Of a stretch of DNA of 64,000 nucleotides, positions 10,100 through 62,050 are shown one piece after another (positions within the stretch are counted from its first letter, which is position 1; each line of letters opens with the position of its first letter). The notes beneath the pieces are model-generated. The model was not told where the DNA came from. It worked only from the letters and a program-made list of their open reading frames with translations, and did no database searches. Location: NCBI GenBank assembly GCA_021793405.1, contig JAJYSV010000005.1, positions 62,001 to 126,000 on the forward strand. The letters are read 5' to 3'. This DNA is from Acidobacteriota bacterium. GTDB taxonomy: Bacteria; Acidobacteriota; Terriglobia; Terriglobales; Acidobacteriaceae. Both the position numbers and the translations under genes were made by a program.

Positions 10100-10144
10100 T
10101 TTCTTGGGCTCCAATGCAGCTGCACAACGGGAAGGCACACCACT

Positions 10145-13744: not shown

Positions 13745-13793
13745 AATCGAGAAACGTCGCTTTGCCAACTTGGCTGGCTGGGTCAATTGAAGA

Positions 13794-14129: not shown

Positions 14130-14181
14130 TCTGGACCCAATCTTTCGCCGCCAGCGCCCTACTTACCAAACGAGGCCATCG

Positions 14182-15138: not shown

Positions 15139-15281
15139 GACCGTGGAGAAATATGCTCGGAGTGTGGCCTGAGACCGGTCCGTGCACCGACTGAATTAAA
15201 AAGCATCGCTCGACAGAAGTGTCGAATCTTCTTAGTCATCATTGTCAGCCATCACCGTAACTTGTCTTAGAGGAGATCAAC

Positions 15282-15785: not shown

Positions 15786-15815
15786 ATCGATTCCGGAGAT
15801 TACTCGCGCGGCTTT

Positions 15816-18359: not shown

Positions 18360-18574
18360 TCCTGATCTCTTTTCTTGCACCCAATCTGGAGGCGCGCCGC
18401 CGATTCTTTTCCAGAGTGGAATATTGCCCACGGACAAGAAACAGCGGAGTACTTGCAGGTTTTGGTTGCGGAAGCAGAGTACCATGGTTGCGTGCTAGGA
18501 GGCGGCGTCTCAGACTGACGCACATATGTAGCACGCGGGCAGTGCTTTCCTGACTCTAAATCGGCCTGGTATGG

Positions 18575-18617
18575 GAACGACCTGAGACCCGCATTTGCAG
18601 CGGGTCTCAGGTCGTTC
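18575..18617 (-). terminator. Strong hairpin after the metallothionein gene
   Basis: A perfect 18-bp inverted repeat (left arm GAACGACCTGAGACCCGC, 7-nt loop ATTTGCA) starts 33 nt beyond the metallothionein stop in its direction of transcription. No run of T follows, so intrinsic termination is not certain; RNA stabilisation is the other option. Confidence 0.5.
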
Positions 18618-18649
18618 GTCTAAACAGCACGGCATCGATCTGCCTGCTG

Positions 18650-18808
18650 CTAAGCTTTTAAAGCTTCGCCTTTGCAAGCAGGATGATTGCATTGGCACGT
18701 CAGCTCCGTCATTTTCTTCGAATCCCTGCATCGGTCGCTGCAGTAATCTTTGCCATCCGTTGTCATGCAGTTACAGCCGGAATGTTTGCATTGCTTTGGC
18801 TGATTCAT
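18650..18808 (-). CDS. Bacterial metallothionein
   Basis: A 52-residue protein that should bind zinc, cadmium or copper through cysteine thiolates in the cytosol. It has eight cysteines and two candidate ligand histidines: KQCKHSGCNCMTTDGKDYCS near the N-terminus, then a CRDS segment, then CQCNHPAC near the C-terminus. The order CxHxxCxC, YCSxxC, CxCxHxxC is that of the SmtA/BmtA-type prokaryotic metallothionein fold. An AAGAGGTG site lies about 6 nt before the ATG at 18808. It is divergent from the BON-domain gene, with about 230 bp between; no metal-sensor (SmtB/ArsR) gene is nearby. A strong hairpin follows. It is too short for many gene finders. Confidence 0.85.
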   Translation of the reverse strand: MNQPKQCKHSGCNCMTTDGKDYCSDRCRDSKKMTELTCQCNHPACKGEALKA

Positions 18809-19038
18809 ATCGTCACCTCTTGTGCAAATCGTTCGATCGCAAACGCTCCATCAGCCCGGGGGTAAACGGAGTGCTTTGATTATTAGGATGAGTTCCGAGG
18901 AGTCGACGCAACGCTTTTTCCAAAATTTACTTTTCCACGTCTTTTGCTGCTCTATGGGTCGGTGAACCTCGCACCGCGAAAGCAACATACATTCCATTTT
19001 CTTCAACTAATTACATGTTAGTGCGATAGGAGAAATAA

Positions 19039-46785: not shown

Positions 46786-48846
46786 CTAGTGAAATTCTAC
46801 GGATCCATGCAGCAAAATATTCGCGGAAGAAGAGCCAGCCATCAAGGAATAGATGCCCGGTTGAATACGCCATGCGTGGTCCATCTCCGACCAATATGAG
46901 AAAGCCCGTGCGTTGAGCGTCATCGCAACCGCTTCAGACTGGCCCGGTTGGAGCATTACCCTTCGAAATCCTTTGAGTTGTTCGGGGGGTTCATTGCCCT
47001 CGTCAATAGGTGGGAAGCCCACATAGAGTTGGGCGACCTCCGCTCCCGGATACGTTCCGACATTCTTCACGCGAAATCGCAGCGTGACCACGTGCGTGGA
47101 TGAATCCACATGAGCGATAGCGAAGTCGGAATAGGCAAAGGTGGTGTAGGAGAGACCGAAGCCGAAAGGGAAAAGTGGCCTCACGTTATGCGTCTGGTAC
47201 CACCGGTAGCCAACCTGGATGCCTTCAGTGTAGTGGACGATTGTTCCATCACCCGGATATTGCATGGAATTGTTGGCGAGTGTGTCCTGTACACGCCGGG
47301 GGAAGGTGACGGGCAGCTTGCCGGATGGATCGACAGTTCCAAACAAAATATCGGCCAGCACATTCCCATCTTCCTCACCTGGATACCAAGTTTCCAGGAC
47401 CGCGGGAACGTTTTGCAGCCATGGCATCAGCACCGCCGAGCCAGTTTGCAGCACCACGACGGTTCGTGGATTTGCGTGGGCGATGGCCGTGATGAGGTCA
47501 TCCTGATGACCGGGCAATGTGAGCGACTGATCCTGCCCCTCTGTGTCCTGATCGCCGACTACCACGATCGCCACTGCTGCTTTGGCTGCGGCATCCGCGG
47601 CGGCGGGAATGTCCGATCCATCCAGAACGGTTAATTTAGCCTGATCCGGAAGATGAGCGCGGATGCCATCCTCCGGCTGTATGGAATAGAAAGGGATTAC
47701 AAGGGAGCTGCCGCCGCCCCCGGTCAGGGTTCGCACCGCATAGGGTCCGATAAGTGCTACGGAATGGAGCGAACGATAATCCAGCGGAAGAAGATGGTTT
47801 TGGTTGCGGAGGAGAACCGCTCCCTCCTCGGCAATGGAACGAGCTACAGCGCCATCGGCCAGGACAGGGATTGCCTGCATCGATCGGCGCTTTCCAAACA
47901 TTCCAAATTGCATCATCGTGGCATAGCGGCGAATCAGTTTGTCGTCGATCAGGGAAGAGGGGACTGTTCCGGATTGGACAGCCTGCTGAAGCTGGGCGGA
48001 GAAATATTTTCCGGTGGGCATCTCGAGATCGAGGCCAGCCAGCGCGCTGGGGATCGTGCTGTGAACTGCTCCAAAATCTGAAATGACAAAGCCTTCGAAG
48101 TGCCAGTCATCCTTGAGGACGTCTGTCAAAAGAAATTTGTTGGCGCAATTGAATTCTCCATTCACGCGCGGGTATGCGCACATCACCGATGCAACATGTC
48201 CATCCTTCACTGCGGCCCTGAAGGCCGGCATGTAGATCTCCCGCAATGCGCGAGCGCCAACAATTTCATTGATGCTGCCGCGATCCGTCTCCTGATTGTT
48301 CGCGACATAGTGCTTTACATTTGCCATGACGCCACTGGACTGAATGCCGATAATATTGGCGACGGCAAGGCGGGATGCCAGAAATGGATCTTCTCCATAG
48401 GCTTCAAAGACACGACCAGATTGAGGGACCCTCGCGATATTCACGTCTGGAGCTTCCAGCAGGTCTGACCCAAGATCGCTAGCTTCCGACCCGGCAACTT
48501 CTCCATATTTGCGGGCAGCATTTGTATCCCAACTGGCGGCCAAGGCAATCGGCGCAGGCAGAGCGGTAGCGCGCAGCTGTGGGCTGCTTCCCCCGGGACC
48601 TGCGCCTGCGGGACCGTTCGTCATGGTGAGCGACGGAATACCAAGCCTCGAAACCCCGGGCACAAAACGGTAGTGATGTTCATCGCGGACGCCGTGGAGC
48701 TGGCTTATCTTTTCGGGCAATGTCATTCGTTGCACGATAGCCCGGACCTTGGCTTCCGCCTGCTTCGTGCTGAGGGTCTGCGCTCGAGAGCCGACTGCCG
48801 CTAACAGAAGCAGAGCCGTCCTCGTGCCGATTCGCGAAATCTTCAA
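46786..48846 (-). CDS. Exported GH3 glycoside hydrolase (beta-glucosidase type)
   Basis: A 686-residue family 3 glycosidase. Signal peptide at residues 1-22 (ALLLLAAVGSRA). The catalytic TIM barrel has NGPAGAGPGG, the KHY motif at 178-180, and the nucleophile Asp257 in VISDFGAVHS (Phe where many family members have Trp). The alpha/beta sandwich carries the acid/base region near residues 400-480 (GDQDTEGQDQSLTLPGHQDD), and a fibronectin III-like domain ends the protein (FGFGLSYTTFAYSDF; GAEVAQLYVGFP). Likely releases glucose or xylose from the ends of oligosaccharides in the periplasm. It precedes a sugar catabolic cluster but is on the other strand. Confidence 0.93.
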   Translation of the reverse strand: MKISRIGTRTALLLLAAVGSRAQTLSTKQAEAKVRAIVQRMTLPEKISQLHGVRDEHHYRFVPGVSRLGIPSLTMTNGPAGAGPGGSSPQLRATALPAPIALAASWDTNAARKYGEVAGSEASDLGSDLLEAPDVNIARVPQSGRVFEAYGEDPFLASRLAVANIIGIQSSGVMANVKHYVANNQETDRGSINEIVGARALREIYMPAFRAAVKDGHVASVMCAYPRVNGEFNCANKFLLTDVLKDDWHFEGFVISDFGAVHSTIPSALAGLDLEMPTGKYFSAQLQQAVQSGTVPSSLIDDKLIRRYATMMQFGMFGKRRSMQAIPVLADGAVARSIAEEGAVLLRNQNHLLPLDYRSLHSVALIGPYAVRTLTGGGGSSLVIPFYSIQPEDGIRAHLPDQAKLTVLDGSDIPAAADAAAKAAVAIVVVGDQDTEGQDQSLTLPGHQDDLITAIAHANPRTVVVLQTGSAVLMPWLQNVPAVLETWYPGEEDGNVLADILFGTVDPSGKLPVTFPRRVQDTLANNSMQYPGDGTIVHYTEGIQVGYRWYQTHNVRPLFPFGFGLSYTTFAYSDFAIAHVDSSTHVVTLRFRVKNVGTYPGAEVAQLYVGFPPIDEGNEPPEQLKGFRRVMLQPGQSEAVAMTLNARAFSYWSEMDHAWRIQPGIYSLMAGSSSANILLHGSVEFH

Positions 48847-49157: not shown

Positions 49158-49346
49158 ATGCTGGACGAGGTACGCCCTGGATACTTGCGTTATATTGCGG
49201 TGTTCGGAACGGTAGTTTATCCAGGCGATTTGATCCATGCGGACCAACATGGAGCGGGTGTTATTCCGCAAGCGGTCGCTCGGGAAGTGATCAACGCCAC
49301 TCAAGAAATTGAGCGTGATGAAAAAGTGATGATTGGGTTATGTTAA
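49158..49346 (+). pseudogene. C-terminal fragment of an RraA-family protein
   Basis: The 62-residue frame reads like the end of an RraA/HMG-aldolase-family protein: VFGTVVYPGDLIHADQHGAG, VIPQAVAREVINATQEIERD, ending EKVMIGLC. In intact members (about 220 residues) the PGDLxxAD motif sits after a complete alpha/beta/beta domain with the GxxxxRD active site; that part is absent. Family members often sit in sugar-acid operons, which fits the neighbouring genes. The upstream frame stays open for a few codons (AREKLD) without a ribosome binding site. Confidence 0.7.
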
Positions 49347-49418
49347 GTCGGACACGTTTTTCAATTTCGGAACTCGACAAATTGATTTCTCCGGAATACT
49401 AGCACTGCTGGGAGCTAC

Positions 49419-50234
49419 CTATCCGGCGATCGCGGAAGTTCGGCCTGCAGGTTTCCGGTTCTCGTGCCGGCCGGCGACGATGACCTGGACTCCAGATTCC
49501 CGCAGAACGTTGATGTATGTCTGATCGGTGCCGGAATCCGTCACCAGGGTGTGGATGTCTGTGGACGGCCCGACATAGGCGAACCCTTGGTTGCCGAATT
49601 TGCTGTGGTCGGCCAATCCGATCCGTTCCTTGGCAATTTTTGTAATCTGTTTTTTGATCGAAGCTTCCCCTTGACTCGCCGTCGAAATGCCGTAGTCCGG
49701 GTCGATCGCGCTGATGCCAAGAACAGCCTTGTCCACTCGAATTTCAGTGAGCGATCGCTGCGCCCACAACCCGGAAAGATAGAAGATATCGCGCTGCAGG
49801 TCGCCACCCGTGCACATGACGTTGATATGTGCGGCGCGCTGCAGCTGGCAGACGATCAAAGGTGAGTTGGTAACCACGGTGAGGCGGTTCCGCTGCAGCA
49901 GGTGCGCGGCCAGTTCGTACACCGTGGTGCTGCCTTCCAGAAAAACTGTATCGCCGTCGAGAATCAATTTCGCAGCCGCTTCGGCGATCCACTGCTTCTG
50001 TTCCAGATTGGTCCGCCCAAGCGCCTCATACGACGGCTGGAAGTTGGTGCTGGTCGTCTTGGAAACGGCTCCTCCATGGGAGCGGACCAGCAGGCCTTCT
50101 TCTTCCAGTGCCGCCAGATCTCTGCGGATCGTCGCCGCGGTCACGCCAAGCGTCGTTTTGAGCTCGGTCGCGCTCACCGTGCGCTGCCGGGCCAGTACTT
50201 CACAGATTCGGAAACGCCGTTCCTCAGCGAGCAT
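49419..50234 (-). CDS. DeoR-family transcriptional repressor
   Basis: A 271-residue sugar-responsive repressor. The N-terminal winged helix-turn-helix has the DeoR signature RQRTVSATELKTTLGVTAAT followed by IRRDLAALEEEGLLVRSHGG. The C-terminal sugar-phosphate-sensing domain (DeoRC) carries FLEGSTTVYELAAHL, the TNSPLI turn, GGDLQRDIFYLSG and DKAVLGISAIDPDYGISTAS. The ligand is expected to be a phosphorylated intermediate. It is divergent from the aldolase operon; GAGGGCCAGGAC precedes the ATG at 50234, and three direct repeats lie 22-50 bp upstream, so it probably represses itself and the operon. Confidence 0.92.
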   Translation of the reverse strand: MLAEERRFRICEVLARQRTVSATELKTTLGVTAATIRRDLAALEEEGLLVRSHGGAVSKTTSTNFQPSYEALGRTNLEQKQWIAEAAAKLILDGDTVFLEGSTTVYELAAHLLQRNRLTVVTNSPLIVCQLQRAAHINVMCTGGDLQRDIFYLSGLWAQRSLTEIRVDKAVLGISAIDPDYGISTASQGEASIKKQITKIAKERIGLADHSKFGNQGFAYVGPSTDIHTLVTDSGTDQTYINVLRESGVQVIVAGRHENRKPAGRTSAIAG

Positions 50235-50255
50235 GTCCTGGCCCTCTATCTATCT

Positions 50256-50284
50256 ATATGTCCCATAATATGTCCTATATGTCC
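50256..50284. promoter_or_regulatory. Triple direct repeat, likely DeoR-type operator
   Basis: ATATGTCC occurs three times at 50256-50263, 50268-50275 and 50277-50284, spaced by 12 and 9 bp (start to start), all on one strand, immediately upstream of the repressor start at 50234. A related GCATGTCC covers the start codon itself. Placement suggests an operator or cooperative binding site for the adjacent DeoR-family protein. Binding is inferred. Confidence 0.5.
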
Positions 50285-50406
50285 CACCGCGATGCTGGTC
50301 GCCTCGCTGTCGATCATAACGATTCTGAGCATAGCAGCTATGCCTGATTTCCGCAGATATCGCTCCTCAAAGCGATCAGAAAAGAATAATAATGAACATA
50401 AAGCAT

Positions 50407-50436
50407 TGACATTCGAACCATTTTCTCGATAGTTTA
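50407..50436 (+). promoter_or_regulatory. Candidate sigma-70 promoter of the sugar operon
   Basis: A perfect -35 TTGACA (50407-50412) is followed after 18 bp by TAGTTT (or after 17 bp by ATAGTT). The transcript would start about 40 bp before the TTG of the aldolase gene at 50486. The region is AT-rich relative to its surroundings. No experimental support. Confidence 0.45.
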
Positions 50437-50485
50437 TGAAAGATGCAACCATGTTTGCATAGAAACGATAAGCTAGGGGGAATTC

Positions 50486-51298
50486 TTGGGAGACGTTGGA
50501 AAGACAATTCGCCTCAATCGAATTTTGCGCGGGCCGGGACGCGGTTCCCTGGTGGTCGCGTTCGATCACGCGCTTGTCTTGGGGCCAATTCCCGGGACGG
50601 AAAATCCAATTCAGCAAATTAGACAATTTGCCGATGCCAGTGTGGATGGAATTCTGCTCAACCTGGGCCTGCTGCGCCACTGCGCGGAATCGCTGAGCCC
50701 CGGCAGAACGCCAGGGATTATTGCGCGGATTGATTGGACGACGGTGTGGAACTCCCTGTCGGAAGGTGCAGGCGGAGTGCTTCGAAGCTGCATGTTGGCG
50801 ACGCCGGAAGAAGCGCTTCGTCACGGAGCCGATGCGGTGCTGACATACATGGTTGTAGGTACAGGCGATGCCGACTTCGAAGCCAAGGAGGTTGAGCGCA
50901 ATGCTCGTGTTGCCCGCGAGTGTGAACAGATCGGAATTCCGCTGATTGTGGAGACGCTGGCGCGAGGTAAAGGGGTGGAAAACCCGGGCGATTCCAAGTG
51001 GTTGAAGCTCCACACGCGCATGGCTGCGGAGTTGGGAGCCGACGTGATCAAGACCGATTATGCGGGGAGCGTAGAGGTGATGCGATCGGTTGTTGAGGAG
51101 TGTCCGATTCCAATTTTGGTGCTTGGCGGAAGCAGGAATGAGGCCGCCCTGGATGTGGTGCGCGGTGTGGTAGAGTCTGGGGCCGCAGGTGTTTTCTTTG
51201 GCCGCAATGTTTTCCAGGCTGACGACATGCTGGCATTTTTGCGGAAGGCGCGTGCAGTATTGGATCATGCTGACGCGAGGGTGCTAGCCCAATCATGA
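50486..51298 (+). CDS. DhnA/LsrF-type class I aldolase
   Basis: A 270-residue TIM-barrel aldolase of the DeoC/LacD/DhnA superfamily, which includes archaeal class I fructose-bisphosphate aldolase and LsrF. AFDHAL (about 25-30) is the phosphate-side signature, and Lys189 in ADVIKTDYAGS fits the Schiff-base lysine. PILVLGGSRNEAAL near the end is the phosphate-binding loop. Start is TTG at 50486 with GGGGG 6 nt upstream. It is the first gene of the operon and overlaps the next gene by 4 bp (ATGA). In this context it would split a ketose phosphate made by the isomerase and kinase; the true substrate is unknown. Confidence 0.88.
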   Translation: MGDVGKTIRLNRILRGPGRGSLVVAFDHALVLGPIPGTENPIQQIRQFADASVDGILLNLGLLRHCAESLSPGRTPGIIARIDWTTVWNSLSEGAGGVLRSCMLATPEEALRHGADAVLTYMVVGTGDADFEAKEVERNARVARECEQIGIPLIVETLARGKGVENPGDSKWLKLHTRMAAELGADVIKTDYAGSVEVMRSVVEECPIPILVLGGSRNEAALDVVRGVVESGAAGVFFGRNVFQADDMLAFLRKARAVLDHADARVLAQS

Positions 51299-52482
51299 CC
51301 ACGATCAAGAGTGAGCCAATCAACAGATTCGAGCGCGTGGACGACCTGCTGGATGGGCGTCCTGGATTTCGTCTTACGGGCGAGTGGGGGCACCTCTCCA
51401 TGCTCGAAGGCGGCGGCCACATTTGCGAGTTGATTTCGAATCGTCATCCAGGCATCAATCCTCTGTGGAAGCCGACCTGGTTGACGATGGACCCCTACCG
51501 GTATGACATAACCAGGGATGCTGCAACGTATGGTCCGCTGCCGGACGGGCGGTTGCTCGCCGGGATTGCAGGACATAGTCTTAGCTTTGATTTTTTTGGC
51601 CCGCCCTCTGCCGACGAAATTGCCGCCGGACAAAGCACGCATGGCGAGGCTCCAGTTTTGAAGTGGAGCGTGTCCGCCCCGCTGGAGCCAAGCGTACCGA
51701 CGGCCGAATGCAGATTGTCGCTGCCGGAAGCAAAAATAGAATTTTCGCGCAAGCTCTCGATCGATCTACATTCTCCCGTGGTGTACATCGAGGAATCCGC
51801 TACAAACCTGATGAGTCTGGATCGTCCCATCTCCTGGAATGAGCACGTCACGCTTGGGCCTCCGTTTCTGGAATGTGGAACGACCATCGTCGACATGCCT
51901 GCGACCAAATGCAGAGTTTCTTCGGAGAGTTTTAGCAGCCGTATGTTGGTGCAACCGAATGCCGACTTTGAATGGCCCATGGCGCCGGGGATGGATGGCA
52001 GTCCACACGATTTGCGAACGATGCCGGACAAAATTTACTCGCAATACACGGCTCAACTGCTCGATCCGCAGGTAGAGTTCGGGTATGTCGCTGCGGCGAA
52101 TCCTGGACTGCAGCTACTGATTCTTTATGTATTCCGTCGCGCGGATTTTCCATGGGTGGGGAACTGGGAAGAGCGTTTCGCGCGATCCCATTCTCCCTGG
52201 AAGGAACGAGCTTTCTGCAGAGGCTTGGAATTCAGCACTACACCGTTCGCAATTCCCAGACGAGAAACGATATCGCAAGGCAATCTGTTCGATGAACCTA
52301 CCTATTGCTGGCTGCCGGCAAAGGCAACGGTCAGCCTTCGCTATATGGCCCTTCTAGTCGATGTGCCGACGGACTTTCAGGGCGTCGACCATGTGACGGT
52401 GGCAGACAATGAAGTTCGCATTGTCGAGAGAAAAGCAGGGCGAACCTTTTCGTCCCCGGCGAGTGCATTTTTACAAAAATAA
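51295..52482 (+). CDS. Aldose-1-epimerase-like (mutarotase-fold) protein
   Basis: A 395-residue protein with the beta-sandwich text of the galactose mutarotase superfamily: GGHICELISNRHPGINPLWK, SLPEAKIEFSRKLSIDLHSP, ISWNEHVTLGPPFLECGTTI and a late YCWLPAKATVSLRYMALLV. Closest in my memory to DUF4432-like hypothetical sugar-binding proteins. The classic mutarotase active-site His-His-Glu trio is not clearly recognisable. In this operon a mutarotase would supply the right anomer to the isomerase; that role is inferred from position. Overlaps the aldolase gene by 4 bp, and ends 48 bp before the kinase gene. Confidence 0.7.
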   Translation: MTTIKSEPINRFERVDDLLDGRPGFRLTGEWGHLSMLEGGGHICELISNRHPGINPLWKPTWLTMDPYRYDITRDAATYGPLPDGRLLAGIAGHSLSFDFFGPPSADEIAAGQSTHGEAPVLKWSVSAPLEPSVPTAECRLSLPEAKIEFSRKLSIDLHSPVVYIEESATNLMSLDRPISWNEHVTLGPPFLECGTTIVDMPATKCRVSSESFSSRMLVQPNADFEWPMAPGMDGSPHDLRTMPDKIYSQYTAQLLDPQVEFGYVAAANPGLQLLILYVFRRADFPWVGNWEERFARSHSPWKERAFCRGLEFSTTPFAIPRRETISQGNLFDEPTYCWLPAKATVSLRYMALLVDVPTDFQGVDHVTVADNEVRIVERKAGRTFSSPASAFLQK

Positions 52483-52530
52483 GAACGTCCACGCGCTTGG
52501 CGAGTGATGGATGATCGTTAGGACAGCTGC

Positions 52531-54054
52531 ATGAACCTGCTCGCGATTGATATAGGATCGAGCCGTTGCAAGGGAGTGTTGTTCTCTTCCTCAGGCGAGA
52601 CCTTGGCACACTGCACTCAATCGTACGCGCCAGAGTTCCCCCGGCCATCGTTTGCGGAAATGAATCCTGAGACTTTTCTGGATGCCGTAACTGCAGTGTC
52701 GCGGTCGATCTGCGGTTCCCAACGCGAGGGCACGGTCGAGGCTGTATGCCTTAGCTCCCACGGGGAAACACTGATCCCTGTGAATTCCGCTCGCGTGCCT
52801 CTGCGCACAGCAATTTTGAATATTGACACACGCGCGTCCGACGAAGCTGAGTGGTGCGAACAGCAGATGGGCCGTAAGCATCTATTTGAACTGACCGGTC
52901 ATACTTCTCACACCATGTATCCCGTTCCTAAGTTGCTATGGTTGCGCAAGCATGAACCGGAATTGTTTCAGGCTGGGTGTCGATTTCTCGGCGTCATTAG
53001 CTATATCTTTTTGCGACTTGGACTTCCACCGTATATTGACTACTCGCTCGCCTCCAGGTTCATGGCCTTCGATATCCGCAAGAAATGCTGGTCGGATGAG
53101 GTTTTGTCTCTTCTTGACATGGAGAAGGACTCTTTTCCTGTCTCCGTCCCTGCTGGAACAATCGCCGGAAAATTATCTCTCGAAGCTGCCCGACAGCTTG
53201 GACTGAGCGCGGGTACCTTGATGATTGTTGGTGGGCACGATCAGGCATGTGGTGCCGTGGGAGTGGGCGCAATTACTTCTAAAAAAGTCTTCGACTCGAT
53301 GGGAACGTATGAGAGTATTGCGGCGACTTCCGATAAACCCCAGATCAGTGAGGAAGCCCTGGCCTATAGCCTGAATACGTATTGCCACGTCATTCCGGAC
53401 AAATACATTACGCTTGCGTATTTTCCATCTGGCATCATGATCCAGTGGTTTTCCGATCTTCTTCATCCCTTAAATGCAGATGGGTTATCAAGTGCAGCTG
53501 AAGAGGCAAATTTTTCTGCGCTCGAGTCACTCGCGCCGGAACAGGCAAGCGGCTTGCTGGTGGTGTCGCACCTGATCGGAACTTGCAATCCCGATTTCAA
53601 TCCGAACGCGCGCGGCGCAATCCTGGGACTTACAGCAAGTTCGCATCGCGGTGATATCTACAAAGGAATCCTCGAAGGAATAGCGTGCGAACTCTCCAGT
53701 ATGACCGGGATTTTCGAGCGGACATTGGGCCCCTTCAAGGACATTTATGCGACCGGAGGAGGGACACGATCCCAGCTTGGCATGCGGTTGCGGTCCGCGA
53801 CGACCGAGCGAACGTTCCACTTAATGAGCTGTCCGGAATCTGTGTGCCTTGGTGGCGCAATACTTACCAGCGTAGCTGTTGGACGGTATCCAACCATCTG
53901 TGAGGCTGTGAAGCAAATGGTTCGAGAGGAGAAGAGCTTTGAGCCGGATCGTGCCCTTACGCGCGCTTACCTTCCGATAAAGAAGCAGTATGTCGAGTTG
54001 AATTCTCTGTTGAGAAAATTTGAAAAGTGCACAACAGCCCCGCAACTGACTTAG
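52531..54054 (+). CDS. FGGY-family carbohydrate kinase
   Basis: A 507-residue sugar kinase of the glycerol/xylulose/fuculose kinase family. Phosphate-1 motif LLAIDIGSSRCKGVLF at the N-terminus, the FGGY signature region around SHGETLIPVNSARVPLRTAI, and the second-domain ATP site with GGHDQACGAVGVG and ATGGGTRSQLGMRL. No signal peptide. The pairing with an isomerase and an aldolase suggests phosphorylation of a ketose such as a 6-deoxyhexulose or pentulose. Ends 10 bp before the isomerase gene. Confidence 0.9.
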   Translation: MNLLAIDIGSSRCKGVLFSSSGETLAHCTQSYAPEFPRPSFAEMNPETFLDAVTAVSRSICGSQREGTVEAVCLSSHGETLIPVNSARVPLRTAILNIDTRASDEAEWCEQQMGRKHLFELTGHTSHTMYPVPKLLWLRKHEPELFQAGCRFLGVISYIFLRLGLPPYIDYSLASRFMAFDIRKKCWSDEVLSLLDMEKDSFPVSVPAGTIAGKLSLEAARQLGLSAGTLMIVGGHDQACGAVGVGAITSKKVFDSMGTYESIAATSDKPQISEEALAYSLNTYCHVIPDKYITLAYFPSGIMIQWFSDLLHPLNADGLSSAAEEANFSALESLAPEQASGLLVVSHLIGTCNPDFNPNARGAILGLTASSHRGDIYKGILEGIACELSSMTGIFERTLGPFKDIYATGGGTRSQLGMRLRSATTERTFHLMSCPESVCLGGAILTSVAVGRYPTICEAVKQMVREEKSFEPDRALTRAYLPIKKQYVELNSLLRKFEKCTTAPQLT

Positions 54055-54064
54055 GAGTAAATGC

Positions 54065-55447
54065 GTGATTCAACCAACCATCGGTTTTATTGTTTACGGT
54101 GTTCATAAGGATGGCTTGTTAGATCCCATGGGCAAGCCATTCATTGATGAGTCGATACTTGCCGCGGCAAAACGGCAGCTCATCGCCGCGGGGCTTCAGT
54201 TAGTCGAGCACCCAGTGGTTGTGGCGACCAAGGAAGAGGCGAAAGCTGCGCTACGCCAGATGAAGCACGATGAGAAGGTCGATGCGGTCATCCTGTTCTC
54301 TGGAACATGGGTTTGGGCGGCGAACATGGTTGGCGCCATCCGAGAGTATGCCGCGACCGGCAAGAGCGTGTTGGTATGGACTCATCCCGGCTCACAGGGT
54401 TGGAGGCCGGTGGGCGGTCTCGTCCTGCACGGTGGGTTGCTTGAGATTGGAGTGCCGCACAAGTTTGTATACGGAGAGGCTGAAGACAGCGAAACCATTG
54501 CGGGTATTGTTAGTTTTGCACAAGCAGCGCATTTAAAGAGCATGCTGAACCTGTCCACGATGGGTGTGTTTGGCGGCAGGGGCATGGGTCAGACCTGCGG
54601 AGCGGCTGATCCGTCGCAGTGGATGCGAATGTTTGGAGTCGACATTGATTCTCGTGACACCACGGAAGTAATGCGGACCGCCGAGCAAATATCGCCGGAA
54701 GAAATCAAGCAACTCGAACCTCGGTTGCAGCAACTCTTCGGTTCTGTTCCGTCGGAGAATATGGTCAATGAGCGCTCCATTCGTCTCTACCTGGCGCTGA
54801 AACAGATTGTCGAACGCGAGAAATTCGATTTCTATACGATTCAATCGTTCCCTGGGCTGGCGGATGACTACTCTGCCACATGCTTTGCGCAAAGCATGAT
54901 GTTGGAGGACGGTTATGGTACCTCCACACTGGGAGATTTCAACACGGCCCTTACAGTTTTTCTGCTGACAAAGCTGAGTAATGAGCGTGTCTACTACGGC
55001 GATCTTCAGCATATTGATAAAAAAACGAATGAGATAAAAATTATTGGGGATGGCGCATGTCCGCCGTCGCTCGCCGGCAAGCTAGGACCTGCTGGATTTG
55101 CCGAACATGGCATTCCTACCGAAGGAGGGGCTGGCGGGCTCTCCGTCAAGTTGGTTTGCAAGGAGGGCGAGGGAGTGTTGGCGCGACTGGGCCGCGTGAA
55201 CGGAGAGTTCACCATGGTACTCGTGCGTGCCAGCATCTTTGAACCGTCGCAGGATCAGTTACCACGGCGGCTCCAGGAGTGCAACATACCATTCTGGCCG
55301 CATGGTTTTGTAACTGCTCATTGCGACATCGAAGCTCTCCTTCAAAACTGGACGAATGAATACGCATGCCTTGGCTATGGGAAACATCTCTATGCGGCGA
55401 TGGCCGACTTCTGCGACCTAACCGGCATCCGAACTATTTTGCTGTGA
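54065..55447 (+). CDS. L-fucose/L-arabinose isomerase-family protein
   Basis: A 460-residue member of the fucose/arabinose isomerase superfamily (COG2407-like). Alternating Rossmann-like text at the N-terminus (DAVILFSGTWVWAANMVGAI) and the C-terminal barrel fit. In this family the metal ligands are normally a Glu and Asp within a CE.D motif and a His in NHH. Here the Asp is present (STLGDFNTALT) but the Glu is not obvious, and the end reads NEYACLGYG, so ligand identity is uncertain. GTG start with AGGAG 8 nt upstream. It would interconvert the aldose and ketose forms in the operon's pathway. Confidence 0.8.
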   Translation: MIQPTIGFIVYGVHKDGLLDPMGKPFIDESILAAAKRQLIAAGLQLVEHPVVVATKEEAKAALRQMKHDEKVDAVILFSGTWVWAANMVGAIREYAATGKSVLVWTHPGSQGWRPVGGLVLHGGLLEIGVPHKFVYGEAEDSETIAGIVSFAQAAHLKSMLNLSTMGVFGGRGMGQTCGAADPSQWMRMFGVDIDSRDTTEVMRTAEQISPEEIKQLEPRLQQLFGSVPSENMVNERSIRLYLALKQIVEREKFDFYTIQSFPGLADDYSATCFAQSMMLEDGYGTSTLGDFNTALTVFLLTKLSNERVYYGDLQHIDKKTNEIKIIGDGACPPSLAGKLGPAGFAEHGIPTEGGAGGLSVKLVCKEGEGVLARLGRVNGEFTMVLVRASIFEPSQDQLPRRLQECNIPFWPHGFVTAHCDIEALLQNWTNEYACLGYGKHLYAAMADFCDLTGIRTILL

Positions 55448-55482
55448 TCTACAACCGAGCCATGTTGGCTGAAGGAGTGAGT

Positions 55483-56976
55483 ATGAGCGCAACCATCTCG
55501 TCAGTGCAAATGGAAGCACCCGTCGTCGATTTTCTCAAGGCGCCTAAGAAACTGCTCATCGATGGTACGTGGGTGGAAGCTGCTTCGGGGAAGACGTTTG
55601 GAACCTACAATCCGGCGACAGGGGAAGCATTGGCAACAGTCGCAGAGGGAGACGCGGAAGACATCGATCGCGCAGTCAAGGCTGCTCGCCGTGCGTTCGA
55701 CAGTGGGCCGTGGTCGCGCATGACGCCATCGAACCGGGGCCAATTAATCTGGAGATTGGCCGACTTACTGGAGCAACATTTGGACGAGTTTGCGCAGATC
55801 GAAACGCTGGACAATGGCAAACCGTTCTCGGTGGCACGTGTTGCCGATGTTCCACTTGCAGTAGATCTTTTTCGATATATGGCCGGCTGGGCGACCAAGG
55901 TTACCGGTGAGACGATTCCGCTTTCGACGGGTGGTCATTTCGGATACACGCTACGCGAGCCGGTCGGAGTGGTGGGGCAAATCATTCCGTGGAACTTTCC
56001 GCTGCTGATGGCAGCCTGGAAGCTGGGTCCCGCACTGGCCACGGGGTGCACAGTCGTCTTGAAGCCGGCAGAGCAAACTCCGCTGAGCGCATTGCGCCTG
56101 GGCGAGTTGATCATGGAAGCTGGATTTCCGGGAGGGGTCGTCAACATTGTGCCAGGATTCGGAGAAACCGCAGGAGCTGCACTGGCGGCCCATCCGAATG
56201 TGGACAAGATCGCGTTTACCGGTTCGACGGAAGTAGGGAAGCTGATCGTACAGGCGGCATCGGGCAATCTGAAAAAGGTGTCGTTGGAACTGGGTGGGAA
56301 GTCTCCGAACATTGTATTCCGCGATGCGGACATCGATGCGGCGATTGCCGGCAGCGCTCGCGCAATCTTCTTCAATCATGGTCAGTGTTGTACCGCGGGC
56401 TCGCGGTTGCTAATCGAGCAGTCCATATTCGACCAGGTCGTGGAGGGCGTGGCGGCAGAGGCAAAGAAGATCAAAGTGGGGCCGGGACTCAGCCCGGATA
56501 CCGACATGGGTCCCCTGGTATCCGAAGAGCAATTAAGCCGCGTGTGTGGCTATCTGGAATCTGGTTTTGCAGAAGGCGCGCGAGCAGCCGCGGGCGGGAA
56601 AAAGGTGAATGGTCCCGGCTATTTTGTACAGCCCACCGTTCTGACGGACACAAATCCTAACATGAAAGTTTGCAGGGAAGAGATCTTCGGACCGGTGCTG
56701 GTGGCGATTCCATTTCGCGATCCGGAAGAAGTGTTGTCCACTGCGAATAACTCCATCTATGGGTTGGCCGCTGGAATCTGGACGCGCGACGTGGGGAAAG
56801 CGCACTTGCTGGCTTCAAGATTGCGAGCGGGTACCGTATGGATCAATTGCTACAACGTGTTCGATGCGGCGCTTCCGTTTGGCGGATACAAGCAATCGGG
56901 ATGGGGCAGGGAGATGGGCCGCGAGGTCCTGGATCTGTACACACAGGTGAAATCTGTGTGCGTGGCAATCAACTAG
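55483..56976 (+). CDS. Aldehyde dehydrogenase (NAD(P)+-dependent)
   Basis: A 497-residue ALDH. Visible: NAD-binding IIPWNFPLLMAAWKLGPALA, KPAEQTP, the GSTEVG turn, Glu269 in LELGGKSPN, and catalytic Cys303 in NHGQCCTAGSR; the end has NCYNVFDAALPFGGYKQSG. ATG at 55483 has AGGAG 6 nt upstream. It is the last gene of the operon, 35 bp after the isomerase, and would oxidise the aldehyde left after aldol cleavage (for example lactaldehyde or glycolaldehyde), as AldA does in fucose breakdown. An in-frame start at 55366 would overlap the isomerase gene by 82 bp; I rejected it. Confidence 0.94.
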   Translation: MSATISSVQMEAPVVDFLKAPKKLLIDGTWVEAASGKTFGTYNPATGEALATVAEGDAEDIDRAVKAARRAFDSGPWSRMTPSNRGQLIWRLADLLEQHLDEFAQIETLDNGKPFSVARVADVPLAVDLFRYMAGWATKVTGETIPLSTGGHFGYTLREPVGVVGQIIPWNFPLLMAAWKLGPALATGCTVVLKPAEQTPLSALRLGELIMEAGFPGGVVNIVPGFGETAGAALAAHPNVDKIAFTGSTEVGKLIVQAASGNLKKVSLELGGKSPNIVFRDADIDAAIAGSARAIFFNHGQCCTAGSRLLIEQSIFDQVVEGVAAEAKKIKVGPGLSPDTDMGPLVSEEQLSRVCGYLESGFAEGARAAAGGKKVNGPGYFVQPTVLTDTNPNMKVCREEIFGPVLVAIPFRDPEEVLSTANNSIYGLAAGIWTRDVGKAHLLASRLRAGTVWINCYNVFDAALPFGGYKQSGWGREMGREVLDLYTQVKSVCVAIN

Positions 56977-57465: not shown

Positions 57466-58266
57466 TTGAAAAGACGACAGTTTCTGACTTCTTCCCTGGC
57501 TGCATCGGCCTTCGCTTTGGGTGCCAAAACTTTCGAGGCAGAATCAACCTCCTCCGGAACGCCACGCGAATACTACGAGCTGCGTCAGTACCATCTGCGG
57601 ACAGGACCACAAACGAAGCTGACGAATGATTATGTATCGGACGCCCTGATACCGGCACTCAATCGGCTTGGGATTTCTCCTGTAGGAGCGTTCAACCTGA
57701 CCCTGGGTCCAGAGACTCCAACGTTATATCTCCTTCTTCCCAGTCCTAAGCTTGAAACGCTGGTTACAGCCGAACTACATCTGGCGCAGGATGAAAGCTT
57801 CTTAAAGACTGCCGATTCCTTCTGGAATGCGCCGGCCACCGCACCGGCATATTCCCGGATGGAAAGTTCGCTTCTGATTGCTTTCGAGGGCCAGCCAAAG
57901 CTGACTGTTCCCCCGGTGACTGCGGACCATGGCAAGCGAATCTTTCAACTACGCACCTATGAAAGCCCCAGCAACCAGGCGCACATACGCAAGGTGGAAA
58001 TGTTTCACAGCGGTGAGTTTGCCTGCTTTCAAAGAGCTGGTTTCTGGCCGGTGTTTTACGGCGATGCTCTGATTGCTCCGCGCCTGCCTAAGCTGACCTA
58101 CATGCTCAGTTATCCAGATTTGGGAGAGATGAATGCCAAATGGGCCGCCTTCGGCGCCGATCCCGAATGGAAGAAACTCACCAACTCGCCGAGATTCAAT
58201 TACGAAGCTATCGTCAGCAACATCACGAACCTGATACTCAGCCCCACCTCCTACTCTCAGATTTAG
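57466..58266 (+). CDS. Tat-exported NIPSNAP-family protein
   Basis: A 266-residue protein with a Tat signal (MKRRQFLTSSLAASAFALGA) and two ferredoxin-like NIPSNAP domains, around EYYELRQYHLRTGPQTKLT and RIFQLRTYESPSNQAHIRKV, each with the family's RxY motif. NIPSNAP domains are small-molecule binding or oligomerisation folds; bacterial two-domain exported forms are common in acidobacteria and planctomycetes, without a known reaction. TTG start at 57466 with GGAGAG about 6 nt upstream. It lies next to the sugar-degradation operon in the same direction. Confidence 0.82.
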   Translation: MKRRQFLTSSLAASAFALGAKTFEAESTSSGTPREYYELRQYHLRTGPQTKLTNDYVSDALIPALNRLGISPVGAFNLTLGPETPTLYLLLPSPKLETLVTAELHLAQDESFLKTADSFWNAPATAPAYSRMESSLLIAFEGQPKLTVPPVTADHGKRIFQLRTYESPSNQAHIRKVEMFHSGEFACFQRAGFWPVFYGDALIAPRLPKLTYMLSYPDLGEMNAKWAAFGADPEWKKLTNSPRFNYEAIVSNITNLILSPTSYSQI

Positions 58267-58321
58267 CTGTTGGTAGTGTGGGTTTTCCGCTGATCACAAC
58301 GAAGTTCTTGCTGCATGTAGA

Positions 58322-58390
58322 TGGGGGACGCGGAAGGAATCGAACCTTCAGCCTGTGGTCTACCCCCATCGCTTAGGCCCGTCAGCAGCT
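58322..58390 (-). other. tmRNA/tRNA 3'-end-like remnant
   Basis: Reading the minus strand, the segment ends GAAGGTTCGATTCCTTC (a perfect T-arm: 5-bp stem and TTCGATT loop) followed by CGCGTCCCCCA, i.e. an acceptor-like arm with terminal CCA. Upstream comes CTAAGCGATGGGGGTAGACC, which resembles the last pseudoknot/linker before the T-arm in many tmRNAs. No complete cloverleaf or 5' half can be made from the flanking DNA, so the gene is not intact. Such 3' ends are the usual attachment sites of integrases, so this may be an old att site. Confidence 0.45.
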
Positions 58391-58475
58391 TTGACAATTT
58401 CTGCCCAAATTTATCTGCGGATGGAGGATATAAAGCGGAGATTGACCGAGTACGCATGGGAGTCCTACAATCCTG

Positions 58476-61400
58476 ATGCTGAGAGGATCAGCTTTGTTTT
58501 CAGCGTCAAAGCGCAGGAGTGAATTCAAATTGGCGACTGACTATCCGAGTGCCGCGAGTCCAAAAAAGGTAGTTCGAGCTAAGCCAAGTCATTATGCTTG
58601 GGCGCCGTCGCTGTGTCTTACAGTGGCTATCCTGGGGACCGCAGTTGGCTGTCGCGACAGGCGGCCGCGTACGATGACAGGTCAAAGTGCGCAGCATCTT
58701 GATTTCAACCAGGATGTGCAGCCGATTCTGGCCAGTAACTGCTTCAGTTGTCATGGACCAGACCCGGAGATGCGCAAGGCTGGCCTGCGGCTGGATCTGG
58801 AAGAATCGGCGTTCAAAAAGCGACCGGGGCACCCCGACGCGATTGTGCCCGGGCACCCGGAGCGTAGCGAACTCATCAAGCGGATCGAGTCAAAGGACCC
58901 TCACTATCTGATGCCGCAGTCGCCACAAGGCGAGGCGAAGCCGATGAAACCCGCTGATATAGCAATCCTCAAAGAGTGGGTGAAGGAAGGTGCGGTCTAT
59001 CGTCCGCACTGGGCGTTCGAAAAACCTGTCAAGCCGCCGCTGCCGACTTTCGTTGAGAACAATGGCTGGGCGAAGACGCCGATCGATATGTTTGTCCTCG
59101 CTCGTATGCAGAAAGAGGGTTTGCATCCCTCCCCGGAAGCGGACAAGGACACATTGATCCGGCGCGTGACGCTCGACCTGACCGGCTTACTGCCTACGCC
59201 AGCGGAGGTCACCGCGTTTGCAAACGATACGTCGCCACAGGCATATGAGCACGTGGTGGACAGGCTGCTCGCAAGTCAGAGTTATGGAGAAGCGCGGGCG
59301 CGCTACTGGATGGATTACGCGCGTTACGCCGACACCTACGGACTTCACTACGACAACAGTCGGGACATCTGGCCTTATCGCGACTATGTGATTCGGTCGT
59401 TCAACAGCAATAAGAGGTTCGATCAGTTTGCCATGGAGCAGATCGCCGGAGACCTTCTCCCGGCCAAAAATCTGGACCCATTGATCGCGAGCGGATACGT
59501 GCGCCTGGGCGTGAGCAGCAACGAAGGCGGAACCATTCCCGAGGAACTGCGCGTCAACATAGCGCGGGAGCGCACCGAGGCCTACGGTGCCACCTTCATG
59601 GGCCTTACCGTGGGTTGCGCCGTTTGTCACGATCACAAATACGATCCGACCACGCAGAAGGACTTCTATGCGTTGAGCGCCTTCTTCAACAATATCGACG
59701 AAGAGCCGTTCAATGGAGACCGGCCGGTTTGGACGCCAGTTGCCAGAATCCCCACGCAGCGGGATGTGGATGCGTACAACCGGGTGCTGGCGAAGCGATC
59801 CGACCTTGCCAGCCAACTGAATACAGCGCGGTTGCAGGAACGCACCCTGGTACGGAGGTGGTTGGCGTCTGGACAGAATCCGCCCATACCTGTCTCGTCC
59901 GATAAGCTCCTGCTTCGCCTGCGCCTGGATGAAGGCGGAGGCGAGGTGCTGAGGAACAGCGCGCCGAATGCGCACCCGTCGAGCTTTCCCATCGGCAAAT
60001 CGAAACCGCAATGGGGCGAGACGACCTGGCTCTGGCCTGACTTCCGCATCGATGCCAGCACCCACGTGATGCTGGGGCAGACCGGCGATGAGGATTGGAA
60101 CCAGGCGTTCTCCCTGGGTGGATGGTTCATGTTGCGCGCCGCGCCGAACTACACAGTGGAGAGCACTTCAGGCGCCCTGATATCGAAGATGGATACGACC
60201 GAGCACAACCGGGGCTGGGATCTCTCGGTCGAGAAGGGAATCCTTAGTGTCGATCTGGTAAATGAAGAACCCAAGGAGAAGACGAAGCCCAAGAAATCAG
60301 GAGCGAAGAAGGGAATCCTGCCGAAGGAGCCATTCTATTATCCAACCCCCACCGATCTGACAGCCAAGGACCTGGCGCCCAACAAGCCACCGCCCAAGAA
60401 GACTGCCGCGAAAAAAGAAGTTGCCAGGAAGGAGGACTCCAAGAAGTCAGCCGCCATGGCGGTGAAGGATACGACACCGCTGGTGGCCATCAAGGTTTCG
60501 ACGGTCGATCCTCTGCCTCTCGATGGCAAGTGGAAACACGTGTTCTTTACCTACGATGGATCGGGCAAAGCATCAGGAATCAAGATCTATGTGAATGGCA
60601 CGGCGGTACCGACCCGCGTAGTCTTCGATACGCTGCGTCAGTCGACGATACGGACGCAGGCTCCGATGCAGCTTGGATGGAGATATCCCGACGCGACTCC
60701 GGCGCAGGACACACGGTACCAGGACATCCGCATGTATGGGCGCGCGCTGAGTCCGGACGAAGCAAAACGGCTCCCCTTTGAAGACTATGTGGCGGAGATC
60801 GTGAGGAAGCCACAGGGTCAGTGGAATGAAGACCAGTGGCATACCATCAGCGAGTTCTATCTCAACGATGTGGACAGGAATTTTGAGGCGACTCAGAGCC
60901 AGATCAATCAGCTCGATGCACAACTCGTCAAGCTCTCGGAGGGAGGGCCGTTGACGCTTGTATCGTGGGAGAAGCCTTCGATTGCATACGCGGACGTGCT
61001 GACGCGGGGAGTGTACACGGCGCGAACCCAGAGGGTGGAGGCGAACACACCGCATTTTCTTCCGCCGTTGCCGGCGGGGGAACCTCACAACCGGTTGGCC
61101 TTGGCGAAGTGGACCGTCAGCCCGGAGAATCCGTTGACTGCGCGGGTGACGGTAAACCGGATGTGGTACGAGCTGTTCGGAACCGGGCTGGTGGAGACGA
61201 CGGAAGACTTCGGGATCATGGGACAGCGGCCTTCGGACCCCGAACTGCTGGACTGGCTGGCTGTTGAGTTCCGGCAGAGTGGATGGAACGTCAAGCATAT
61301 GTACAAGCTGATGGTGATGTCGGCAACTTACCGGCAGAGCGCAAAGTCGACGCCGGAGCAACTGGCGAAGGACCCGAAGAACCTGTTGCTGTCGCATGGG

Positions 61401-62036
61401 CCGCGGTTCCGCATGGATGCTGAAATGCTGCGGGATGTCGCGCTCGAGTCGGGCGGCCTGCTGGTGAATAAAATTGGCGGCCCAAGCGTGAAGCCGTACC
61501 AGCCTGCGAATGTGTGGGAGCAGGTGAGCATCGGGGGCAGCGACACATTAGTGTATGTACAGCAGCACGGCGATGCGCTCTACCGGCGCAGCATGTACAC
61601 GTACTGGAAGCGCATGGCGATGATGCCGGATATGGATGCGTTCGATGCACCGATGCGCGATGTGGCCTGCACGCGGCGACAGCGGACGGATACGCCGCTG
61701 CAGGCGCTGGTCACGATGAACGATGTACAGTGGGTTGAGGCGGCGCGGGCGCTGGCGCAGCGGGTGATCGAGCAGGGTGGGAGGCAGCCGGACCAGCGCA
61801 TCAAGTTGATGAGCGATATTCTGTTGTCGCACGATCCGCCACCCCAGATGGCCTCGGTGCTGGAGGGCTCGCTGGCGCAGATGGAAAAGCATTATGCGGC
61901 GGACCCCAAGTCGGCGCATGAACTGATTGAAGTGGGCGAAAAGAAGAGCGACGCCTCGATCCCGGCACCTAAGTTGGCGGCCTGGACGATGGTGGCAAGC
62001 GAGATGCTGAACCTGGATGAGACGGTGACGAAGTAG
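58476..62036 (+). CDS. PSD1 / planctomycete-type cytochrome c protein with LamG domain
   Basis: An 1186-residue exported multidomain protein. After a membrane/lipobox-like segment (LTVAILGTAVGC) comes a planctomycete-type cytochrome c domain with heme motif NCFSCH (about residues 85-95), a PSD-type DUF1549 domain (TPIDMFVLARMQKEGLHPSP; RVTLDLTGLLPTPAEVTAFA; MDYARYADTYGLHYDNSRDI), a LamG/concanavalin-like domain (about 480-760; LSLGGWFMLRAAPNYTVEST-like), and a DUF1553 domain at the end (NPLTARVTVNRMWYELFGTG; RQRTDTPLQALVTMNDVQWV). A Lys/Pro/Ala-rich low-complexity insertion (nt ~60264-60480) interrupts the LamG domain. First gene of a three-gene operon; role unknown, probably periplasmic redox or polymer-related. 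Confidence 0.9.
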   Translation: MLRGSALFSASKRRSEFKLATDYPSAASPKKVVRAKPSHYAWAPSLCLTVAILGTAVGCRDRRPRTMTGQSAQHLDFNQDVQPILASNCFSCHGPDPEMRKAGLRLDLEESAFKKRPGHPDAIVPGHPERSELIKRIESKDPHYLMPQSPQGEAKPMKPADIAILKEWVKEGAVYRPHWAFEKPVKPPLPTFVENNGWAKTPIDMFVLARMQKEGLHPSPEADKDTLIRRVTLDLTGLLPTPAEVTAFANDTSPQAYEHVVDRLLASQSYGEARARYWMDYARYADTYGLHYDNSRDIWPYRDYVIRSFNSNKRFDQFAMEQIAGDLLPAKNLDPLIASGYVRLGVSSNEGGTIPEELRVNIARERTEAYGATFMGLTVGCAVCHDHKYDPTTQKDFYALSAFFNNIDEEPFNGDRPVWTPVARIPTQRDVDAYNRVLAKRSDLASQLNTARLQERTLVRRWLASGQNPPIPVSSDKLLLRLRLDEGGGEVLRNSAPNAHPSSFPIGKSKPQWGETTWLWPDFRIDASTHVMLGQTGDEDWNQAFSLGGWFMLRAAPNYTVESTSGALISKMDTTEHNRGWDLSVEKGILSVDLVNEEPKEKTKPKKSGAKKGILPKEPFYYPTPTDLTAKDLAPNKPPPKKTAAKKEVARKEDSKKSAAMAVKDTTPLVAIKVSTVDPLPLDGKWKHVFFTYDGSGKASGIKIYVNGTAVPTRVVFDTLRQSTIRTQAPMQLGWRYPDATPAQDTRYQDIRMYGRALSPDEAKRLPFEDYVAEIVRKPQGQWNEDQWHTISEFYLNDVDRNFEATQSQINQLDAQLVKLSEGGPLTLVSWEKPSIAYADVLTRGVYTARTQRVEANTPHFLPPLPAGEPHNRLALAKWTVSPENPLTARVTVNRMWYELFGTGLVETTEDFGIMGQRPSDPELLDWLAVEFRQSGWNVKHMYKLMVMSATYRQSAKSTPEQLAKDPKNLLLSHGPRFRMDAEMLRDVALESGGLLVNKIGGPSVKPYQPANVWEQVSIGGSDTLVYVQQHGDALYRRSMYTYWKRMAMMPDMDAFDAPMRDVACTRRQRTDTPLQALVTMNDVQWVEAARALAQRVIEQGGRQPDQRIKLMSDILLSHDPPPQMASVLEGSLAQMEKHYAADPKSAHELIEVGEKKSDASIPAPKLAAWTMVASEMLNLDETVTK

Positions 62037-62050
62037 TTGAGGGAGGATTT

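Follow-up and report, generated by a model that had tools for sequence, protein, structure and literature searches.

A putative portable sugar-catabolic cassette of uncultured bacteria with an AraA/FucI-fold isomerase-like protein and varying aldolase families

In a 64,000-nucleotide stretch of acidobacterial DNA (hereafter, the window), which is part of contig C133 of a 4.6 Mb genome, five plus-strand genes and a divergent gene for a DeoR-family regulator span positions 49419–56976 and constitute a candidate operon for sugar degradation. Based on Pfam and NCBIfam profiles and PDB sequences, the five genes encode, in order, a putative class I (Schiff-base) aldolase of the DhnA/DeoC-LacD type (50486–51298), a protein with a predicted galactose-mutarotase fold that is possibly a distant DUF4432 relative (51295–52482), an FGGY sugar kinase (52531–54054), an AraA/FucI-fold isomerase-like protein with an apparently changed metal site (54065–55447), and an aldehyde dehydrogenase (ALDH; 55483–56976; Aldedh 616 bits). 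The gaps between these genes are −4, 48, 10, and 35 bp, and the regulator gene lies on the minus strand (49419–50234; DeoRC 151.7 bits). The five-gene operon described in a first-pass annotation, which was made from the letters of the window alone, is present in the order and on the strand claimed, and because the gene set recurs across dozens of genomes, the operon is real and beyond chance. Of the extent proposed for it, 50256–56976, the end is right and the start is not: position 50256 lies within an intergenic region, and coding begins at 50486 with the TTG start of the aldolase gene, which is preceded by AGGGGG. For ALDH, we chose 55483 as the most likely start from the ribosome-binding site and a sister genome (see below); an alternative in-frame ATG at 55366 would overlap the isomerase gene. 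The absence of a dedicated transporter holds for the operon itself; a scan of part of the remaining genes of the window found one with a TonB plug domain (36885–39230), 10 kb from the operon.

The isomerase-like protein scored 25.4 bits with AraA_central (cut-off 24) and 17 bits with Fucose_iso_C, which does not reach its cut-off of 29.3; the best NCBIfam match was SftI (NF048012) with 77.3 bits relative to a cut-off of 700. An AlphaFold2 (AF2) model of the protein with a predicted local distance difference test score (pLDDT) of 87 matched L-arabinose isomerases (AraA) over the full length at 14–17% identity, with a template modeling score (TM) of 0.82 for 7chl_A, and the best L-arabinose isomerase row had a Z of 34.4 and a root-mean-square deviation (rmsd) of 3.0 over 436 residues. 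The match to FucI was slightly poorer (1fui_A; TM 0.77, Z 30.6). We conclude from the model that the protein is predicted to have the AraA/FucI fold over its full length.

The aldolase scored 116 bits with PF01791 (DeoC/LacD; cut-off 23.8) and matched MJ0400 among PDB sequences with an E value of 4e-42. Importantly, its Lys189 aligns with the MJ0400 lysine, which we take to be the Schiff-base residue. In an alignment of 22 rows (the window and 21 others, one of which is gapped at Lys189; L033 and L087 were too short and the divergent L064 and L066 were left out), this lysine is kept in all 21 readable rows, window included, while Asp27, Gly214, Gly215, Arg217, Gly239, Arg240, and Asn241 are kept in 22/22 and the GGSR and FGRN loops are invariant or almost so. 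Judged from the PF01791 score and Lys189, the protein is a class I aldolase of the DhnA/DeoC-LacD type, in agreement with the earlier assignment to a Schiff-base DhnA/LsrF-type enzyme; of the NCBIfam subfamily models, none reached its cut-off. The kinase exceeded the cut-offs of both FGGY_N (159.6 bits) and FGGY_C (71.9 bits) and carries a GGHDQ motif with D237, presumably the catalytic residue; among NCBIfam models, XylB, FucK, LsrK, and further models were all below their cut-offs. The mutarotase-like protein remained below the cut-off of DUF4432 (20.5 relative to 32.5 bits), and in a Foldseek search with an AF2 model of mean pLDDT 66, 20 of the first 24 rows were titled mutarotase or aldose/galactose epimerase at an rmsd of 6–10, the best E value being 2e-11.

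To define the distribution of the gene set, we scanned 84,980 species genomes with two short peptide patterns and obtained 62 loci, a number that is a lower bound because only these patterns were used. In 61 of these loci, the isomerase belongs to the family of the window protein (55–95% identity); the remaining locus, L089, has a relative with 22% identity. By record titles, all 62 loci are from metagenome-assembled genomes (MAGs), and the isomerase family is found in nine phyla, i.e. Acidobacteriota, Armatimonadota, Chloroflexota, Planctomycetota, Lentisphaerota, Spirochaetota, Bacteroidota, Calditrichota, and Verrucomicrobiota. The closest named copy is from the Acidobacteria MAG isolate WH2.bin123 (L028). 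In a sample of the phylum, 12 of 396 genomes matched the isomerase at an E value of 1e-10, and identities of at least 40% were reached only by the window genome and by a fragment at a contig edge of G178 (42% over 126 residues). In a sample of the genus, 2/10 genomes had the isomerase at high identity: the window genome (G000) and a sister genome (G009; 95%). A tblastn search for homologs on plasmids gave no match. We note that L033 and L041 hold two isomerase copies with differing neighbors under the single isolate name palsa_296.

Next to the isomerase gene, a limited set of partners recurs. Using BLAST of open reading frames (ORFs), we assessed 32 loci from other phyla and 28 of the 29 acidobacterial loci, L088 having no isomerase call owing to a length filter. 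Among the 28 acidobacterial loci, an FGGY kinase is encoded in all 28, a class I aldolase in 23, a mutarotase-like protein in 20, a GH36-like glycosidase in 19, a DeoR-family regulator in 17, an amino-acid-permease-like transporter in 14, an AgaS-like SIS protein in 8, and ALDH in 1. The gene order is conserved as well, in that aldolase, kinase, and isomerase genes follow each other on a single strand in 22 of the 28 loci, 16 of which have the mutarotase-like gene between those for aldolase and kinase. The first-pass annotation would have been refuted by a gene order found in no other genome, and this test left it standing. An aldolase is encoded in every one of the 23 acidobacterial loci for which 4 kb or more upstream of the isomerase gene is available (22 of class I; that of L041 lies downstream), and in L031 a KbaY-like class II aldolase is encoded 4 kb upstream of the isomerase gene with opposite-strand genes intervening. 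In the 32 loci from other phyla, we found an FGGY kinase in 22, an amidohydrolase in 18, an FBA-like class II aldolase (PF01116) in 13, a protein of ~300 aa that is mutarotase-like by eye and matches neither Pfam nor NCBIfam (A1E) in 7, DUF4432 in 4, a divergent class I-like aldolase in 2 (L064 and L066 of Calditrichota, both of which also have a class II enzyme), and a KbaY-like aldolase in 1 (L072). Thus, the aldolase family varies around a constant isomerase family and an FGGY kinase, and because class I enzymes accompany the isomerase in 23/28 acidobacterial loci and the unrelated PF01116 enzymes in 13/32 others, displacement between class I and class II aldolases is supported, in line with the first-pass suggestion that a class I enzyme replaces a class II enzyme here. 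In a tree of 59 isomerase rows (including L089 and L063, without L076, L081, L087, and L088, and with L031 and L072 grouped as having no called aldolase), a single branch (starred; 100/98) separates two groups. The first contains all 23 rows that have class I aldolase alone and five rows, including L031 and L089, for which no aldolase was called; the second contains 31 rows, all from non-acidobacterial records. Separately, a NagB-like protein is encoded near the isomerase in L030 (4359–6364), L041, L056, L057, L085, and L074, which belong to Acidobacteria, Spirochaetes, and Bacteroidia; five of the six also have PfkB, L056 and L085 are without FGGY kinase, and these loci may represent a second version of the pathway.

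The window and the sister genome share 89–90% DNA identity over 49344–55537 with differing genes beyond. Because the identity is confined to this segment and the flanking genes differ, the cassette has moved and occupies another location in the sister genome. There, similarity to ALDH ends after ~18 codons, and in this genome, which is 85% complete, the best other ALDH is only 59% alike. By eye, the sequence from the break to the contig end (L021, 13556–14194) looks like a transposase gene. Of 60 assessable loci, ALDH matched in one only (L029, 9 kb off and on the other strand), to which the truncated copy of the sister genome, excluded by the length filter, has to be added. ALDH is, therefore, accessory and no conserved part of the cassette, and the earlier proposal that oxidation by ALDH is a step of the pathway does not hold for the gene set at large. 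Similarly, the suggestion that a nearby GH3 enzyme (46786–48846) releases the sugar is not supported, because its gene lies outside the stretch shared with the sister genome, in which DNA identity ends just past the DeoR-family gene; this enzyme scored 470 bits with an arabinopyranosidase model and 469 bits with a beta-glucosidase model, both far below a cut-off of 1300. On the other flank, 57466–63604 holds a NIPSNAP gene followed by genes for a PSCyt1-DUF1549-DUF1553 protein and a DUF1501 protein, a pair typical of Planctomycetes.

The divergent regulator matched best to the NCBIfam model AgaR (195.8 bits; cut-off 260, not reached), followed by GlpR (185 bits), and is 33.5% identical to E. 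coli AgaR. Approximately 50 bp upstream of the aldolase gene lies a candidate sigma-70-like promoter, TTGACA-16-GATAGT (50406–50433, plus strand; 10/12 matches). In a promoter-terminator scan, promoter-type sites in the upstream region were not in excess (5 vs 5.1 in shuffles). Of 21 regions upstream of the aldolase gene (that of the window among them), 8 contain a promoter-type pattern, relative to 0.17% of base shuffles, the pattern having been defined after some of these sequences had been viewed. We do not put forward three ATGTCC repeats (50258–50284) as operators because the sister genome is without them and they occur only as single copies, in either direction, in the upstream regions of 7 of 20 relatives.

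What we observed at these loci is the gene content and its conservation, the fold of the isomerase model, and the aldolase lysine, and from these we infer every reaction described in the following. We suggest that the gene set is probably a portable cassette under DeoR control that breaks down a single aldose through a variant of the isomerase–kinase–aldolase pathway. Specifically, the mutarotase-like protein, for which the model is of low confidence, may equilibrate or open the sugar ring; the AraA/FucI-fold protein would, based on its fold and with the reservation about Leu289 discussed below, convert the aldose to a ketose; the FGGY kinase would phosphorylate the ketose at C1; and the class I aldolase, judging from its family and Lys189, would cleave the ketose 1-phosphate via a Schiff base to dihydroxyacetone phosphate (DHAP) and an aldehyde, which ALDH may oxidize in this genome only. 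In other phyla, the unrelated class II aldolase would perform the cleavage, an example of non-orthologous displacement. A ketose 1-phosphate is suggested because known members of all three aldolase families, i.e. DhnA, FBA-like PF01116, and KbaY-like, mostly act on C1-phosphorylated ketoses.

As to the substrate, we see an even chance that it is a galacto- or arabino-configured sugar, e.g. D-galactose via tagatose 1-phosphate or L-arabinose via L-ribulose 1-phosphate, and regard any single sugar as a doubtful assignment. Such a sugar is hinted at by the AgaR-like regulator and by neighboring genes: the GH36-like glycosidase common in Acidobacteria is predicted to be secreted and matches TmGalA (1zy9; E value 1e-26), a Melibiase-family protein is present in L061, AgaS-like genes occur in 8 of the 28 acidobacterial loci, and KbaZ of L038 and L044 exceeds the TIGR02810 cut-off, with PfkB, AgaS-like, and KbaZ encoded consecutively in L044. 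These glycosidase and neighbor-gene hints are association only. Of note, the window genome has another cluster (L098, G000:C66:37000-56000; 8772–18907) with genes for a GH36-like glycosidase, a Gfo/Idh protein, a ribulokinase (NF003154, 538.7 bits; cut-off 428), a PF02952 isomerase, an SSS symporter, and AraD (NF006047, 321.7 bits; cut-off 257). This cluster resembles an L-arabinose-type module; neither Pfam nor NCBIfam gives an AraA match for its isomerase, which appears by eye to retain the Glu in the motif CEVD. The glycosidase and the Gfo/Idh protein of this cluster resemble those of L029 (51%) and L034 (81%), respectively, and glycosidase pairs akin to those of this cluster adjoin the isomerase module in L036, L039, and L053.

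Several observations weigh against this scheme. Among the 32 non-acidobacterial loci, 10 have no FGGY kinase and 18 have none of the aldolase types that we sought, in both cases partly because of contig ends, and 18 have near the isomerase gene an Amidohydro_2-type protein (e.g. L061:8908–9987 and L042:12685–13839) for which the scheme has no place. The kinases of acidobacterial and other loci are only ~30% alike, and therefore the kinase may also have been displaced. Across the loci, we saw no transporter or glycosidase common to all lineages, and in the second cluster of the window genome, the ribulokinase and AraD do not reach the equivalog models TIGR01234 (333 vs 583 bits) and TIGR00760 (297.5 vs 389 bits), respectively. 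For the aldolase, the Tyr of the YPRG motif of MJ0400, which we assume to be an acid/base residue in the aldolase family, is replaced by Leu158 in 21/21 readable rows, and because the DhnA family also includes synthase and thiolase members (MJ0400, LsrF), formation of DHAP is not implied by the family alone. It is, however, mainly Leu289 of the isomerase-like protein that calls for caution about the reaction. hhalign placed Leu289 on the metal-ligand Glu of AraA via E. coli AraA (probability 83.5) and on the same Glu position via the SftI-like protein of L089 (probability 97.6); the hhalign match to FucI was weak (7.7) and stopped short of the Leu289 region, in which FucI was matched by eye. 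We take this Glu, E306 of AraA and E337 of FucI, to be a metal ligand and, in FucI, the residue thought to act as catalytic base. In addition, each of the two glycines flanking Asp329 aligns with a His: Gly330 with His350 of AraA and Gly328 with its counterpart in the SftI-like protein. Because the ligand Glu is Leu289 and the His350 position is Gly, it cannot be taken for granted that the protein isomerizes an aldose by the known mechanism.

The first-pass annotation had predicted altered metal ligands, and this is borne out at one position: Leu289 is present in all 57 isomerase sequences that we compared (the window and 56 of the 61 family members; L063, L076, L081, L087, and L088 were too short, and L089 belongs to another family). 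Equally, Asp291, Asp313, Asp329, His348, and Glu353 are present in 57/57 and His413 in 56/57. hhalign paired Asp313 with an Asp in the SftI-like protein, and Asp313 and His413 were matched by eye to D361 and H528 of FucI, presumably its second acidic ligand and its C-terminal His ligand. Based on this conservation, the metal site looks as if it had been changed under strong selection rather than having decayed. The same pattern fits the idea that the protein is no aldose–ketose isomerase at all and instead performs an epimerization, acts on an altered sugar, or catalyzes a lyase step, so that the operon would serve another kind of route, and the amidohydrolase genes near the isomerase in 18/32 non-acidobacterial loci as well as the NagB-like and PfkB neighbors without FGGY kinase in L056 and L085 are compatible with this. 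Nevertheless, we consider it unlikely, given that the model has the full AraA/FucI fold and that a sugar kinase and sugar-phosphate aldolases often accompany the protein.

Two named pathways also have to be weighed against the proposed cassette for one aldose. In an L-fucose (or D-arabinose) route built from non-orthologous enzymes, L-fuculose 1-phosphate would be cleaved to DHAP and L-lactaldehyde, which ALDH would oxidize. The order of steps fits the fucose pathway, the ALDH gene follows the isomerase gene in the window, and PF07882 (FucI) is matched in two control genomes and not in the window genome. L035 even has a FucP-like symporter gene ~2 kb from the isomerase gene on the other strand (TIGR00885 411, cut-off 280; NF007524 388, cut-off 427), but this is the only locus with such a match, ALDH is not conserved across loci, and the frequent acidobacterial glycosidase is of the GH36-like, alpha-galactosidase type (fucosidases were not searched for). 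We rate this route as somewhat less likely still than a non-isomerase function. Far less probable is a sulfoquinovose (SQ) operon resembling the sulfo-Embden–Meyerhof–Parnas (sulfo-EMP) pathway, with an SftI/SqvD-type isomerase, a sulfofructose (SF) kinase, an SF-1-phosphate aldolase, and a sulfolactaldehyde (SLA) dehydrogenase. It would account for SftI being the best NCBIfam match of the isomerase-like protein and, as described in PMC9594981, sulfo-EMP2 combines a PF02952 isomerase with a PF01116 aldolase and YihT of sulfo-EMP is a class I aldolase; moreover, YihV weakly matches PfkB-family ORFs in L033 and L053 (26–27%). However, the score of 77 bits is far below the SftI cut-off, and because an isomerase encoded beside ribulokinase and AraD genes scores equally high (80.3 bits), it is unspecific. 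Furthermore, YihQ matches ORFs of L089 only, with no match for YihQ or YihU in the 61 family loci, and YihR, YihS, YihT, and YihU have no match at an E value of 1e-10 among locus ORFs; the SQ-type cluster that the same scan did recover in L089 (YihQ 44%, SftI 372 bits) has an isomerase only 22% alike. For these reasons, we rejected SQ as the substrate. The L089 cluster, from a Bacillota MAG (4449–13576), encodes a YihQ-like protein, the SftI-like protein, which is itself below the cut-off, transaldolase- and FSA-like proteins, and a split transketolase.

A more far-reaching version of the proposed cassette, which we hold only tentatively and think more likely wrong than right, is a phylum-crossing route of uncultured bacteria in which the isomerase-like protein has the AraA/FucI fold and yet forms a functional class of its own that works without the ligand Glu. 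Its metal site would have been rebuilt from Asp313, Asp329, and His413 or others, its sugar would lie outside those of known isomerases, and class I, FBA-like class II, and KbaY-like class II aldolases would have been recruited independently for the cleavage step. To our knowledge, no member of the gene set has been characterized. A full-text literature search, which mostly does not cover subscription papers, returned among the matches listed none recognizably about it. If the reading as a sugar-catabolic cassette holds, this would be a catabolic pathway with a recognizable gene set in nine phyla that in our scan came from MAGs only, and a natural experiment in non-orthologous displacement, with one isomerase family and three aldolase types. 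Because the Glu is regarded as essential to AraA/FucI catalysis, it would also provide a clean test of whether this residue is dispensable.

Compared with known systems, the isomerase-like protein shares with L-arabinose isomerase AraA the predicted full-length fold and AraA_central above cut-off and differs from it by Leu289 at the position of the ligand Glu306 and by an identity of only 14–17%. The aldolase resembles the DhnA, LsrF, and archaeal FBPA class I aldolases in PF01791, the MJ0400 lysine, and the phosphate loops, unlike them being below all NCBIfam cut-offs and having Leu for the YPRG Tyr. With FucI-FucK-FucA of E. coli, the cassette shares the logic of isomerase, FGGY kinase, and aldolase, and FucK is 22% identical to the window kinase (E value 4e-27); in contrast, the aldolase is of class I and FucI is 19.5% identical to the isomerase-like protein (E value 0.006). 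FucA (PF00596) had no meaningful match among window proteins (E values up to 1) or locus ORFs (E values up to 1e-10), and neither had FucU, FucO, and FucP among window proteins. The class II enzymes found instead in other phyla are FBA/KbaY-like (PF01116) and not FucA-like (PF00596). The cassette is not simply the fucose pathway with a single enzyme exchanged, as the first-pass annotation had it. Its further statement that the aldolase of known routes is of class II is correct for FucA and RhaD and does not extend to sulfo-EMP with its class I YihT (PMC9594981). According to the same paper, sulfo-EMP2 (SqvD-SqiK-SqiA) has a FucI-family isomerase, and between sulfo-EMP (YihSVT) and sulfo-EMP2, class I and class II aldolases are swapped between lineages, much as in the gene set described here, which differs in having an FGGY kinase instead of a PfkB or PfkA kinase. 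Finally, a paper on E. rectale notes uncharacterized neighborhoods of DUF4867 proteins that combine a fucose-isomerase-family (PF02952) protein with FGGY (PMC11968277); these have a different mutarotase-type partner.

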